56,389 nucleotides of DNA from Fibrobacteria bacterium (GTDB lineage Bacteria > Fibrobacterota > Fibrobacteria > UBA11236), in NCBI GenBank assembly GCA_021155885.1, contig JAJNBB010000006.1, forward strand, positions 1-56,389, in the 5' to 3' direction. The translations under genes were made by a program, and so were the position numbers. Every line of letters starts with the position of its first letter. Position 1 is the stretch's first letter. Positions 409 to 48,982 of this stretch are shown here, piece by piece. The notes beneath the pieces are model-generated. The model was not told where the DNA came from and searched no databases. It worked only from the letters and a program-made list of their open reading frames with translations.

Positions 409-1356
409 ATGGATTCCGGCCTCGACATTGAGGAGCTGACAGCCGTCTACAAGCTGCTGGGCGACGAGATGCGCCTGCGCGTGCTGGCGCTGCTCCAGGG
501 CAACGAGCTGGCGGTGGGGGAGATCCAGAAGATACTGGGCATTGGGCAGAGCACGCTCTCGTCGCAGCTCGCGCTTTTGAAAGAGCAAAACTTGGTGGCG
601 AGCCGCAAGGAAGGCCAGAAGGTTTTCTACCGCATTCCTTCCGAAAACTCGCGCAAGCTGAACCTGCTGCGCGCCGCGTTGGAGAACACCGCGTCGGCCA
701 AGTGGCACGCGCGCGACCGCCGGCACCTGCAGAAGACCTTGCTGGAGCGTTCCGAGTCGTCGCGCGACTTTTTCAACCGGCAGGCGGCCGTGCAGAACCT
801 GCCCTCGCCGGGACAGACCTGGCAGGCGCTGGCGCACGGCTTGATGGGATTGCTGTCGGGTCGCCGGGTGCTCGACCTGGGCTGCGGCAGCGGGCGCCTC
901 GCGCGGCGGTTCGCCGCGGCGGGGAACCTCGTGACGGCGGTGGACAACAGCGAGGAACAGATACGGCTGGCAAAGGCGGACGCGGCGGGCCCGAATCCCG
1001 ATTTCATCCTGGCTTCCATGGAGGCCACCGGGTTGCCGCCCGATTCCTTCGACGTGGCGCTGCTTTCGCAATCGCTGCACCATGCCGCCGATCCCGCCGG
1101 CGTGATCCGCGAAGCACACCGTCTGCTGACGCCGGGCGGACGGCTGGTGATCCTCGACCTGCTGGCCCACGAGGAAGACTGGCTGCGGGGCAAGTTCGGC
1201 GACTTCTGGCTCGGGTTCGCCGAGCACGACCTGCGCTCCTGGACCGAAGCCGCGGGGTTCCGCATCACGCATTTCGAAATCACGCCTCCCTCGCCGGAAT
1301 ACCCGGACCTGGAGGGAGTGCTGGTTTTGGGAGAGAAAAAACGAAATGATGAATGA
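409..1356 (+). CDS. ArsR-family regulator fused to a SAM-dependent methyltransferase
   Basis: The 315-aa protein has two parts. Residues about 10-85 form an ArsR-type winged helix (LGDEMRLRVLALL, then the recognition helix region GQSTLSSQLALLKEQ). Residues about 130-315 form a class I methyltransferase with motif I VLDLGCGSG near residue 153 and the later LTPGGRLVILDLL strand. The metal-binding cysteines of arsenic or zinc sensors are absent from the HTH part, so SAM or SAH is the more likely ligand. It lies directly upstream of metH on the same strand, with a repeat element in the 108-bp gap. This matches methionine-cycle regulators that sense S-adenosylhomocysteine. Start chosen at ATG 409 because the HTH begins almost at once and the operator ends just upstream. 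The regulatory role is inferred; the domain calls are strong. Confidence 0.85.
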   Translation: MDSGLDIEELTAVYKLLGDEMRLRVLALLQGNELAVGEIQKILGIGQSTLSSQLALLKEQNLVASRKEGQKVFYRIPSENSRKLNLLRAALENTASAKWHARDRRHLQKTLLERSESSRDFFNRQAAVQNLPSPGQTWQALAHGLMGLLSGRRVLDLGCGSGRLARRFAAAGNLVTAVDNSEEQIRLAKADAAGPNPDFILASMEATGLPPDSFDVALLSQSLHHAADPAGVIREAHRLLTPGGRLVILDLLAHEEDWLRGKFGDFWLGFAEHDLRSWTEAAGFRITHFEITPPSPEYPDLEGVLVLGEKKRNDE

Positions 1357-1440
1357 TGAATGCGGAAATATGGAAGATGGCCGCTTGACGGTATGCATCC
1401 TTTTCCCTTTCACCTTTCCGCTTTCCGCCTTCATCATTAA
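1345..1440. repeat. Heptad-phased inverted repeat (ATGATGA type), copy 1
   Basis: The left arm (1345-1369) reads two and a half ATGATGA units and then TGCGGAAA. The right arm (1415-1440) is an imperfect reverse complement, TTTCCGC...TTCATCATTAA. The arms enclose about 45 bp. The left arm overlaps the last codons of the ArsR-methyltransferase gene and the right arm ends 24 bp before metH, so the element sits inside a likely operon. The same arm sequence recurs at 6330-6420. Confidence 0.7.
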
Positions 1441-1464
1441 CAACGAAACGATTCCGGAGAATTC

Positions 1465-4400
1465 ATGACTTCCCATCCCATTCACGACCAGATCAAGAAG
1501 CGCATCCTCATCCTGGATGGCGCGATGGGCACGATGATTCAGCCGTACAAGCTGGACGAGGCCGATTTCCGCGGCGAGCGCTTCAAGGACTGGCACAAGG
1601 ACGTGCAGGGGAACAACGACCTGCTGCAGCTGACGCGGCCGGACGTGATCGGCACGATCCACCGGCAGTATTTCGAGGCGGGCGCCGACATCGTGGAAAC
1701 GAACACGTTCAATTGCAATGCGATCTCGATGGCGGATTACGACATGCAGGGCCTCGTGCGCGAACTGAACGTGGCGGGCGCGCGGCTCGCGAAGTCGATC
1801 GCGGAGGAATTCACGGCCGCGAATCCGGACAAGCCCCGCTACGTGGCCGGCTCGATCGGGCCCACCAACCGCTCGCTGGGAATGTCCCCCGACGTGAACG
1901 ATCCCGGATACCGGGCGATCACGTGGGAACAGCTGGTCGAGGCCTACATGGAGCAGATCGAGGCGCTGATCGAGGGCGGGGTGGACCTTCTGCTCGTCGA
2001 AACGGTTTTCGACACCCTGAACTGCAAGGCGGCCCTGTACGCCATCGAAGAGGTTTACCAAAAGGTCGGCAAGCGCCTGCCCATCATGGTTTCGGTGACG
2101 ATCATCGATCTCGCCGGCCGCAACCTCTCGGGCCAGAGCACCGAGGCGTTCTGGAATTCGGTGTCGCACGCGGACCTGCTCTCGGTGGGCGTGAACTGCG
2201 CGCTGGGCGCGGAGCTGATGCGGCCTTACGTGCAGGAGCTGGCGGAGAAGGCGACTGTGTACGTGTCCTGCCATCCCAACGCGGGCCTGCCCAACGCTTT
2301 CGGCGGCTACGATCAGTCCGCGGAGTACATGGCCGGGTTGCTCAAGGACTTCGCCGAGTCGAAGTTCCTCAACATCGTCGGCGGCTGCTGCGGCACGACG
2401 CCCGCGCATATCCAGGCCATCGCCGAGGCCGTGAAGGCCTTTCCCCCGCGCGAGATCCCCTCGCCGGAGAGGACGCTGCGCCTTTCGGGCCTGGACCCGT
2501 TCACCTTCCGCAAGGAAATCGCCTTCCTCAACGTGGGCGAGCGCACCAACATCACGGGCAGTCCCAAGTTCGCCAAGCTCATCCTGGGCGGAGAGTATGA
2601 CGCGGCGCTCTCGGTGGCGCGCCAGCAGGTCGAGAACGGCGCGTCGGTGTTCGACGTGAACATGGACGAGGGCATGCTCGACTCCGAGGCGGCGATGACC
2701 AAGTTCCTGAACCTGGTCGCCGTGGAGCCCGACATCGCCAAGGCCCCGATCATGGTCGACTCCTCGAAATGGAGCGTGCTGCGCAAGGGCCTGCAGGCGA
2801 TGCAGGGCAAGGGCATCGTGAATTCGATCAGCCTCAAGGAGGGCGAGGAGCAGTTCAGGAAGCGCGCCGCCGAGATCCGCCGCTACGGCGCGGCCGCGGT
2901 AGTGATGGCCTTCGACGAGCGGGGGCAGGCCGACAGCTACGAGCGCCGGATCGAAATCTGCAAGCGCAGCTACGACATCCTGGTGAACGAGGTGGGCTTC
3001 CCGGCCGAGGACATCATCTTCGACCCGAACGTGCTGACGGTGGCGACGGGCCTCGAGGAGCACAACAACTATGCGGTGGACTTCATCGAGGCCACGCGCT
3101 GGATCAAGCAGAACCTGCCGCATGCGCGCGTGAGCGGCGGGATCAGCAACATCTCCTTTTCGTTCCGGGGCAACAATCCGGTGCGCGAGGCGATGCATTC
3201 CGCGTTCCTCTACCACGCCATTCGCGCGGGCCTGGACATGGGCATCGTGAACGCGGGCATGCTCCAGGTGTACGAGGAAATTCCCCCGGCGCTGAAGGAG
3301 GCGGTCGAGGACGTGCTGCTGAACCGCCGCCCCGACGCCACCGAGCGGCTGGTGAACCTGGCGGATTCGTTCAAGGGCGACGGCAAGGCCAAGGTGGTCG
3401 AGGATCAGGCCTGGCGCTCCCTTGCGGTCGAGGCGCGCCTCAGCCACGCCCTGGTCAAGGGCATCATGGATTTCATCGACGTCGACGTCGAGGAGGCGCG
3501 CCAGAAGTACGCGCAGCCCATCGAGGTGATCGAGGGCCCGCTGATGGACGGGATGAACGTGGTCGGCGACCTGTTCGGGTCGGGCCAGATGTTCCTGCCG
3601 CAGGTGGTGAAGAGCGCGCGCGTGATGAAGAAGGCCGTGGCCGTGCTGATGCCCTACATCGAGGCCGAAAAGGCGAAGAATCCCGATTCGCGCGAGGCCG
3701 GCAAGGTGCTGATGGCCACGGTGAAGGGCGACGTCCACGACATCGGCAAGAACATCGTGGGCGTGGTGCTCGCGTGCAACAACTACAAGATCATCGACCT
3801 GGGGGTGATGGTCCCTGCCAACGTGATCCTGGAAAAGGCCCGCGAACACGACGTGGACCTCATCGGACTGTCGGGCCTGATCACGCCCTCGCTGGACGAG
3901 ATGGTGCACGTCGCCAAGGAACTGGAGCGCGGCGGGTTCAAGATTCCCCTGCTGATCGGCGGCGCTACGACTTCGGTCGCCCATACGGCGGTGAAGATCG
4001 CGCCGGTGTACAGCCAGCCCGTGGTGCACGTGCTGGACGCCTCGCGCAGCGTGCCCACTGCGGGCTCGCTGCTCACCGCGCACCAGCGCGAGGCCTTCAT
4101 GGCCGACATCACGGCGCGCTACGACAAGGTGCGCGCCGACCACGCGGGCGCCAACGAGGCGCGCGCCCTGATTCCGATCGACGGCGCGCGCGCGAAGGGG
4201 TTCAAGCCCGACTGGAAGGCGGAGGAGGCCGCCGGCAACGTGTTCCGGCCCCTGAAGCCCGGCGTGCACGCGTTCTCCGACTACCCGCTGGCCGAACTGG
4301 CGGAGTACATCGACTGGACGCCGTTCTTCCACACCTGGGAGCTCAGCGGCCAGTACCCGCGCATCTTCGACGACCCGAAGAAGGGCGAGGAGGCGCGCAA

Positions 4401-48624: not shown

Positions 48625-48674
48625 GGTGTTCTTTCCTTGAAATATGAACCCCGTTTCAGCTCCGGGAGCTGAAA
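48610..48674 (-). promoter_or_regulatory. Two palindromes in the rng leader and over its start codon
   Basis: ATGGGAATTTCCCAT (48610-48624) includes the rng start codon, so in the mRNA the AUG would pair with a CAU four codons later (6-bp stem, 3-nt loop). A second, perfect 10-bp inverted repeat around one central base (TTTCAGCTCC against GGAGCTGAAA, 48654-48674) lies 29 bp upstream of the start. E. coli rne is known to be autoregulated through its 5' leader structure, so similar control is plausible. Confidence 0.55.
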
Positions 48675-48810
48675 GAACAGGGCGTTAATGAAGGTCCAGA
48701 AGAAGTGCATTCTTCCCTTTTTTTCCGGAAGCCCCGTGAAAGAGGGCTCAATATCCGGTAAAATTCGCGAATTCGAATTGAATTCAGGGGAAAAAGTAGA
48801 AACTAACGAG

Positions 48811-48982
48811 GTTACAGGGTACAGGTAACAGGTAACAGGTTACAGGGAACAGGGAAAGCCGGTAAATTCGCTGTTTTTGGGGGACTTGGAAGAAGCGCCT
48901 TAGGCCCATGCGGAACCTGCGACCCAGGCGCCCATTCCATGCTTTTGCGCTCTCTGTTCCCTGTAACCTGTACCCTGTTCCC
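48811..48982. repeat. Heptad-phased inverted repeat (ACAGGTA/ACAGGGA type) between sprA and rng
   Basis: The left arm 48811-48855 has six 7-nt units (ACAGGGT, ACAGGTA, ACAGGTA, ACAGGTT, ACAGGGA, ACAGGGA). The right arm 48952-48982 carries four complementary units (GTTCCCT, GTAACCT, GTACCCT, GTTCCCT) and overlaps the sprA stop codon. Nearly 100 bp lie between the arms. The whole gap 48625-48981 (357 bp) holds only this element and the rng leader; I see no gene in it. Confidence 0.8.

Follow-up and report, generated by a model that had tools for sequence, protein, structure and literature searches.

Phased heptamer arrays around S23 genes and at gene ends of a Fibrobacteria genome: a probable mobile repeat system of the REPIN/RAYT type

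A stretch of 56,389 nucleotides (nt) from a Fibrobacteria bacterium (contig JAJNBB010000006.1 of assembly GCA_021155885.1), here called the window, contains eight short elements which are bounded by inverted arrays of phased 7-nt units. Arrays of the same kind enclose nearly every copy of a small gene, S23 (Pfam PF05635, "23S rRNA-intervening sequence protein"), in this and in other bacteria. The elements share one architecture and one polarity, occur in high copy number and are polymorphic in their insertion, and their unit co-varies with the S23 lineage. They would appear, with good probability, to form a mobile repeat system comparable to REPIN/RAYT, with S23 as the trans-acting factor; since the same repeats flank nearly every S23 copy, S23 probably recognises and spreads them. 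The first-pass annotation of this DNA had described the repeats without the link to S23 genes, which is the main point of the system.

S23 genes and their flanking arrays

Four S23 genes were found in the source genome (G000) by a Pfam search with PF05635. All four are flanked by inverted arms with a 7-nt phase, the units being TTAGGAC, ACAGGGA, GGGGGAC and GTTGTTG, and each of these units recurs in G000 in elements without an open reading frame (ORF). Arms, some of them weak, were also present at 29 of 29 further S23 loci of the same class, i.e., at 33/33 with those of G000 included. A set of 79 analysable S23 loci from named genomes showed an inverted-pair peak at lag 7 or 14 in 58 cases and at lag 8 in 10; control windows 700–1000 bp away had no lag-7 signal, and the median pair score was 18 there versus 31 at S23. 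For the total of 133 S23 loci, a clear inverted pair was obtained at 109 (period 7 in 96, period 8 in 11, another period in two). The S23 loci of the set cover 15 named phyla.

The 87 distinct 7-nt units, aligned by rotation only and read in the 5' arm on the S23 coding strand, i.e., inward, yielded the consensus A(0.75) G(0.90) N N R(0.69) T(0.53) N, or AGNNRTN. Its information content was 2.9 bits, compared with 2.0 bits (maximum 2.2) for random polarity and 2.2 bits (maximum 2.3) for column-permuted units. Under the AGNNRTN matrix, which includes G000's own four S23 units among its 87, inward polarity was identical in 65/65 elements of the G000 sample described below.

The unit follows the S23 lineage. 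With rising S23 protein distance the similarity of units fell from 0.98 (pairs under 0.2 distance) through 0.70, 0.53, 0.45, 0.40 and 0.37 to 0.36 (beyond 0.75), with a permutation p of 0.001; for the nearest S23 protein neighbour beyond 0.2 it was 0.65, versus 0.42 on average. All S23 pairs under 0.40 distance that include an octamer were octameric on both sides (14/14), and the octamer label required 5 changes on the maximum-likelihood tree of S23, versus 10.7 when shuffled. Phyla are mixed on the S23 tree, which fits horizontal spread.

Within single genomes the unit of S23 was also that of the ORF-less elements in G000, G001, G008 and G069 (labels G001 to G069 denote genomes other than G000, and L labels individual loci or stretches). 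The ORF-less units TAGACGG and AAATCAG of G001 are the units of two of its S23 genes; S23 and ORF-less copies share AAGGTTT in G008 and AGTNNAA in a Flavobacteriaceae genome. Arrays were counted over 61 genomes (G000 and 60 others) with one mismatch tolerated. For GTTGTTG there were 181 in G000 and 0 in the 60 relatives, a count for which the reversed pattern gives no independent control, the pattern being nearly symmetric. The two genomes whose S23 carries the GGCGTCG unit contained 224 and 145 arrays of it; G004 contained 12, and the other 58 genomes none. For AGTAGGA, the five genomes with the corresponding S23 had 56–108 arrays each, two genomes with a sister S23 on the tree had 117 and 32, and no other genome exceeded 38. 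Genomes other than G000 were sampled at 60–140 kb each for element searches; within the same genus, the S23-less G002 and G003 contained no element in 114 and 74 kb, respectively, and G001, with four S23 genes, contained nine in 109 kb, two octamers counted.

Some single cases may be mentioned. No S23 was found in G004, and its 12 GGCGTCG array matches are mostly imperfect; this looks like decay after loss of S23. A deeply divergent S23 branch (L156, L159, L161, L168–L172) has kept phased inverted arms, with units that are often A-rich or A/T-rich. The S23 proteins of L003 (G000) and L154 (G001) are 54% identical, and the genes lie in the same neighbourhood in inverted order, with the related units GGGGGAC and GGTAGAC.

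Elements of G000 and of the window

A census of G000, the assembly of which is 87.5% complete, was carried out in 52 stretches comprising 806,758 bases of 2.59 Mb (31% of the genome). The detector searched for inverted arms of period p, and a first-order shuffle of the whole sample served as control. At p = 7, 65 loci were found and none in the shuffle; there were 4 at p = 6 and 0 at p = 8–12, and the 29 loci at p = 5 equalled the shuffle (32). Lack of a genome-wide excess over chance, or of a 7-nt peak in the arms, had been named in the first-pass annotation as refuting the idea; both the excess and the peak are present. Extrapolation suggests about 200 elements in the whole genome. One AGGTAAG element in an orthologous spacer of G000 escapes the detector, and the census is therefore a lower bound.

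The median arm measures about 29 nt (four units) and the median loop about 42 nt. About nine unit families can be distinguished, e.g., GTTGTTG, AGCNNAC, AATGATG, GGGNGNC and AGGNNAC; each family combines invariant positions with about two variable ones. The recurrence of unit types across loci had been noticed before; the earlier figure of three types at two loci each was too low, the commonest family, GTTGTTG, alone accounting for 28 of the 65 elements. Similarity of GTTGTTG arms was 0.884 within and 0.873 between elements (p = 0.11), that of AGCNNAC arms 0.870 and 0.826, respectively (p = 0.013). Arms as exact copies of each other were rejected on this comparison, and the suggestion of copy-corrected arms was not borne out, since the two arms of an element resemble each other only slightly more than arms taken from different elements of its family do, the difference being somewhat larger in AGCNNAC. 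In two places a single arm has grown to about 18 units (L096:3673-3857) and about 12 units (L003:1834-1920); the former contains a 14-nt higher-order repeat, which suggests slippage within arms.

Gene context in the sample was taken from a simple codon-usage gene finder. Gene junctions hold most of the 65 elements. Arm edges which face a stop codon lie within 20 nt of it in 78% of cases (median 4 nt), compared with 28% for start codons, and elements are over-represented at convergent junctions (odds ratio 2.2, p = 0.011). The adjacency to stop codons could be due to target choice or to selection against insertions elsewhere.

Nine spacers with paired arms had been proposed for the window. Direct reading showed two arms of 7-nt-phased units, the right one being the reverse complement of the left, at eight of them (1345, 5171, 6330, 8328, 14472, 28468, 45358 and 48811); the ninth, at 25327, does not belong to the group. 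The sites are (forward-strand positions):

1345..1438: AATGATG unit, ORF-less element; arms 1345-1376 and 1407-1438; the left arm holds the stop codon (1354-1356) of ORF 409-1356
5170..5213: AGTACTC-type unit, compact element without loop; 3 nt past the stop of ORF 1465-5166
6324..6418: AATGATG unit, ORF-less element; arms 6330-6359 and 6389-6418; the flanking genes converge, and their stop codons fall inside the arms
8328..8430: GGTTGTT unit, ORF-less element; arms 8329-8354 and 8405-8430; within an operon, 5 nt from the stop codon at 8436
14472..14560: GGTTGTT unit, ORF-less element; 3 nt past the stop of ORF 12414-14468
28468..28567: AGCNNAC unit, ORF-less element; between convergent stop codons
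45358..45440: AGCNNAC unit, ORF-less element; the end of the right arm adjoins the stop codon at 45442
48809..48983: AGGNNAC unit, ORF-less element; left arm of about 7 units, loop of about 95 nt; the stop codon at 48982 lies inside the right arm
25327..25416: outside the group; an imperfect hairpin of ordinary kind that lacks the 7-nt phase and has no second copy in the 807-kb G000 sample

Tandem Repeats Finder independently reported period 7 in most window arms, and the seven members that were folded as RNA were more stable than shuffles (z = -3.9 to -8.6). All eight members abut or contain a stop codon. They lie between protein genes; no rRNA was found in the window, where Rfam detected one tRNA and nothing else.

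The elements are insertions, for which relatives provide clean empty sites. At 8328 the entire insert, including the loop, is absent in all six relatives examined (G001, G002, G003, G004, G006 and G008), and in G001 the flanking genes overlap at this junction as TGATG. The notion that the loop is an older host spacer around which arms were added was rejected at this locus, because the six relatives have a very short spacer there, without the loop. The 14472 site is empty in G003, with the flanking genes nearly touching, and the 6324-6418 element is absent in G001, G002 and G003. The 1345 junction is empty in G003 and G006 and is occupied by an element with 8-nt units in G001 and by one of ATTGAAA type in G004. 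One further orthologous junction of G000 and G001 carries different units in each species, and at no junction were these two genomes found to share an element of identical unit. The earlier view of a mobile structure class is upheld by the empty sites, by units peculiar to each species and by a copy number of about 200 per genome.

The loops of the ORF-less elements were examined as to origin and function. Decayed S23 genes were rejected (no tblastn match at E ≤ 0.01), as were intrinsic terminators as a class, 3 of 53 loops being terminator-like (2% in shuffles). The loop of the 28468 element (28490-28532) resembles an intrinsic terminator by eye (AAAAAAGGCGGCC...GGCTGCCTTTTTT), and a similar loop is present at L077:2945.

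Proposed mechanism and alternatives

The ends of an element consist of inverted arrays of about 3–5, sometimes more, phased 7-nt units (8-nt units in some clades), with AGNNRTN directed inward. A full-length copy of about 0.5 kb carries one small S23 gene between the arms, the copies in the window being ORF-less ones. Each S23 lineage has a unit of its own, and ORF-less elements with that unit multiply in its genome, mostly beside stop codons. S23, probably a pentamer like its solved relatives, may bind the phased arrays at both ends, either as DNA or as a hairpin exposed on single-stranded DNA or RNA, and could then promote copying or insertion of the element in trans by means of host replication or repair enzymes. 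Binding to the arrays, mobilisation in trans and the choice of a host enzyme for cutting and joining are what we infer.

The G000 S23 is predicted to be a four-helix bundle (mean predicted local distance difference test score 92). Among solved structures, 2gsc and 2rld are closest to it; next come Avd of diversity-generating retroelements (DGRs; 4dwl) and the Avd chains of a DGR ribonucleoprotein (8ub7), with a template-modelling (TM) score of about 0.74. Three of the four G000 S23 proteins match bAvd in Pfam, below its cut-off; homology between PF05635 and Avd has been noted already (PMC10053308). A search for a mover by Pfam gave 0 matches to the transposase domain Y1_Tnp (PF01797) in G000 and G001, other transposase families not having been searched, and 0 matches to the reverse transcriptase RVT_1 in the same genomes; a RAYT or an RVT_1 reverse transcriptase as mover was therefore rejected. 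Viral carriers were considered and set aside, no relative of P0001 being found in viral contigs with P0001 as query.

Several observations weigh against a mobile system driven by S23. We know of no catalytic site in the S23 family; without a known catalytic domain the chemistry is therefore unexplained. Target-site duplications were not found: direct repeats flank the arms at null frequency, and none is visible in the empty/filled pair at 8328. The ORF-less loops are not homologous to one another beyond short stretches, unlike the expectation for recent copies. This is the main unexplained fact; either loops diverge fast while S23 holds the arms to the unit, or insertion assembles arms around unrelated DNA. 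Two G000 S23 copies sit in orthologous neighbourhoods where G001 also has S23, and S23 copies may therefore move rarely and be more stable than their ORF-less relatives; for a third G000 S23 locus no orthologous neighbourhood was present in the three genomes compared. The AGCNNAC and AATGATG families of G000 have no cognate S23 in the assembly, G015 contains 38 AGTAGGA arrays without an examined cognate S23, ORF-less copies are few in the sampled Maribacter, Anaerolineaceae and Flavobacteriaceae genomes, and about 11 of the 79 S23 loci of the cross-phylum set are without arms.

Other explanations should be considered for the same data. The closeness of arms to stop codons, the preference for convergent junctions, the predicted stability of the hairpins as RNA and the co-variation of unit and S23 would suit host regulation, with S23 as an RNA- or DNA-binding regulator, the arrays at 3' ends as operator or processing sites kept for the host, and autoregulation through the arms of S23 itself. 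However, positions are not conserved within the genus, orthologous junctions being empty or carrying a different unit, and the S23-less genomes of the genus were without arrays in the samples, so that a regulatory role seems improbable. About equally improbable is an RNA-mediated element after the manner of the intervening sequences (IVSs) of 23S rRNA and of DGRs, in which the arms would fold in a transcript, RNase III or another nuclease would free the RNA, and S23 would act like Avd, with a reverse transcriptase in trans. The structural likeness to Avd, including the DGR ribonucleoprotein chains, the Pfam match to bAvd and the excision of S23-encoding IVS RNA by RNase III in vitro (PMC4990558) point in this direction, but element-rich G000 and G001 possess no RVT_1 protein, and the pairing of arm with arm is not specially conserved.

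The geometry also resembles that of REPINs (PMC3116915), and the elements might be miniature inverted-repeat transposable elements (MITEs) of REP/IS type, moved by a conventional transposase, with S23 as a passenger. Yet nearly all S23 loci lie between such arms and the unit follows S23 relatedness, and Y1_Tnp, the one transposase family searched, is absent from both genomes; a passenger role would be quite unlikely. Least credible of all appears the view that polymerase slippage and fold-back synthesis generated the arrays where they stand, that these are not mobile, and that S23 genes merely tolerate them. Some arms have indeed expanded to 12–18 units, and a passage of PMC4679880 cites heptamers as the favoured length of long simple repeats in bacteria; against this stand the strict polarity, a single AGNNRTN consensus across phyla and the genome-specific units in high copy, and the clean empty sites, from which the loop is absent too, already contradict it. 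A REPIN/RAYT-like system with S23 as trans-acting factor is thus preferred. More tentatively, S23 and related four-helix-bundle proteins, some of them annotated as of unknown function, may be the specificity factor, perhaps the mover, of pan-bacterial elements without transposase; they would recognise phased arrays of 7- or 8-nt units and spread ORF-less copies by hundreds to the 3' ends of genes, and may be the stock of rRNA IVSs and of DGR Avd.

Relation to known systems

The inverted repeat is common to many intergenic loci, and a cognate gene, S23, is flanked by it. These features are shared with REPIN/RAYT, as are the high copy number, the inverted pair around a spacer, the presumably trans-acting gene beside the same repeats and the co-evolution of gene and repeat (PMC3116915); S23 takes the place of the Y1 transposase here, and phased 7/8-nt arrays that of the REP palindromes. 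The link between S23 and the arms appears to be new, and the logic resembles that of REPIN/RAYT, yet each test naming a known mover fails here. To our knowledge, no described element family is characterised by such phased arrays at its ends, and no enzymatic activity is known for the S23 family. Insertion polymorphism with clean empty sites is found as in classical MITEs, target-site duplication is not.

The ORF-bearing copies resemble 23S rRNA IVSs, which are small elements with terminal inverted repeats and an S23 ORF; in Coxiella the terminal stem has 28 bp (PMC4990558). S23-encoding IVSs in 23S rRNA are seen as parasitic and excised by RNase III, and were once suggested to be mobile, the ORF being needed for mobility (PMC4990558). 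In contrast, the elements described here lie between protein genes genome-wide, in hundreds of copies which are mostly ORF-less, and possess a 7-nt phase. With Avd of DGRs, S23 shares the fold and detectable homology, but the RVT_1 reverse transcriptase is missing in G000 and G001.

A 7-nt unit, mostly intergenic and in many copies, is also known from the short tandemly repeated repetitive (STRR) sequences and TAACTGA repeats of cyanobacteria and Beggiatoaceae and from the heptanucleotides of Geobacter. In the papers cited below these were reported as direct repeats or regulator sites, without a link to S23 or a defining inverted layout, whereas the 65 G000 elements are inverted pairs of one polarity (unpaired arrays being outside the count). 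The heptamer repeats of cyanobacteria, Beggiatoaceae and Geobacter metallireducens have been read as regulator sites or slippage products, and the "class 3" sites of G. metallireducens may be of the same kind as these elements (PMC4679880, PMC2700814). A passage of PMC10910872 names 23S rRNA IVP among domains associated with CRISPR arrays; the association might have arisen if phased heptamer arrays had been mistaken for CRISPR arrays. No paper joining S23 to heptamer arms was found in the open full-text literature; subscription papers and preprints are outside that scope, and priority is not proven.

S23 occurs in at least 15 named phyla of the set and has solved structures and no known role. 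It gains a testable candidate ligand, the lineage-specific phased AGNNRTN arrays, and a candidate role in the spreading of small elements. One possible explanation is thereby offered for the scattered intergenic heptamer repeats of Geobacter, Beggiatoaceae and cyanobacteria and for rRNA intervening sequences, and the question is raised of how elements move without a transposase or reverse transcriptase of the searched families (Y1_Tnp, RVT_1).

Two other repeats were present in the window. A perfect 13-nt tandem repeat, CGGTCCACTAAGA, in 3.2 copies, occupies positions 22693-22734 and has no other copy in the G000 sample. A hairpin of the CTTCGACAAGCTCAGG type at 5589-5661 is a separate dispersed palindromic repeat; the G000 sample contains several more copies of it, and G002 contains partial matches.

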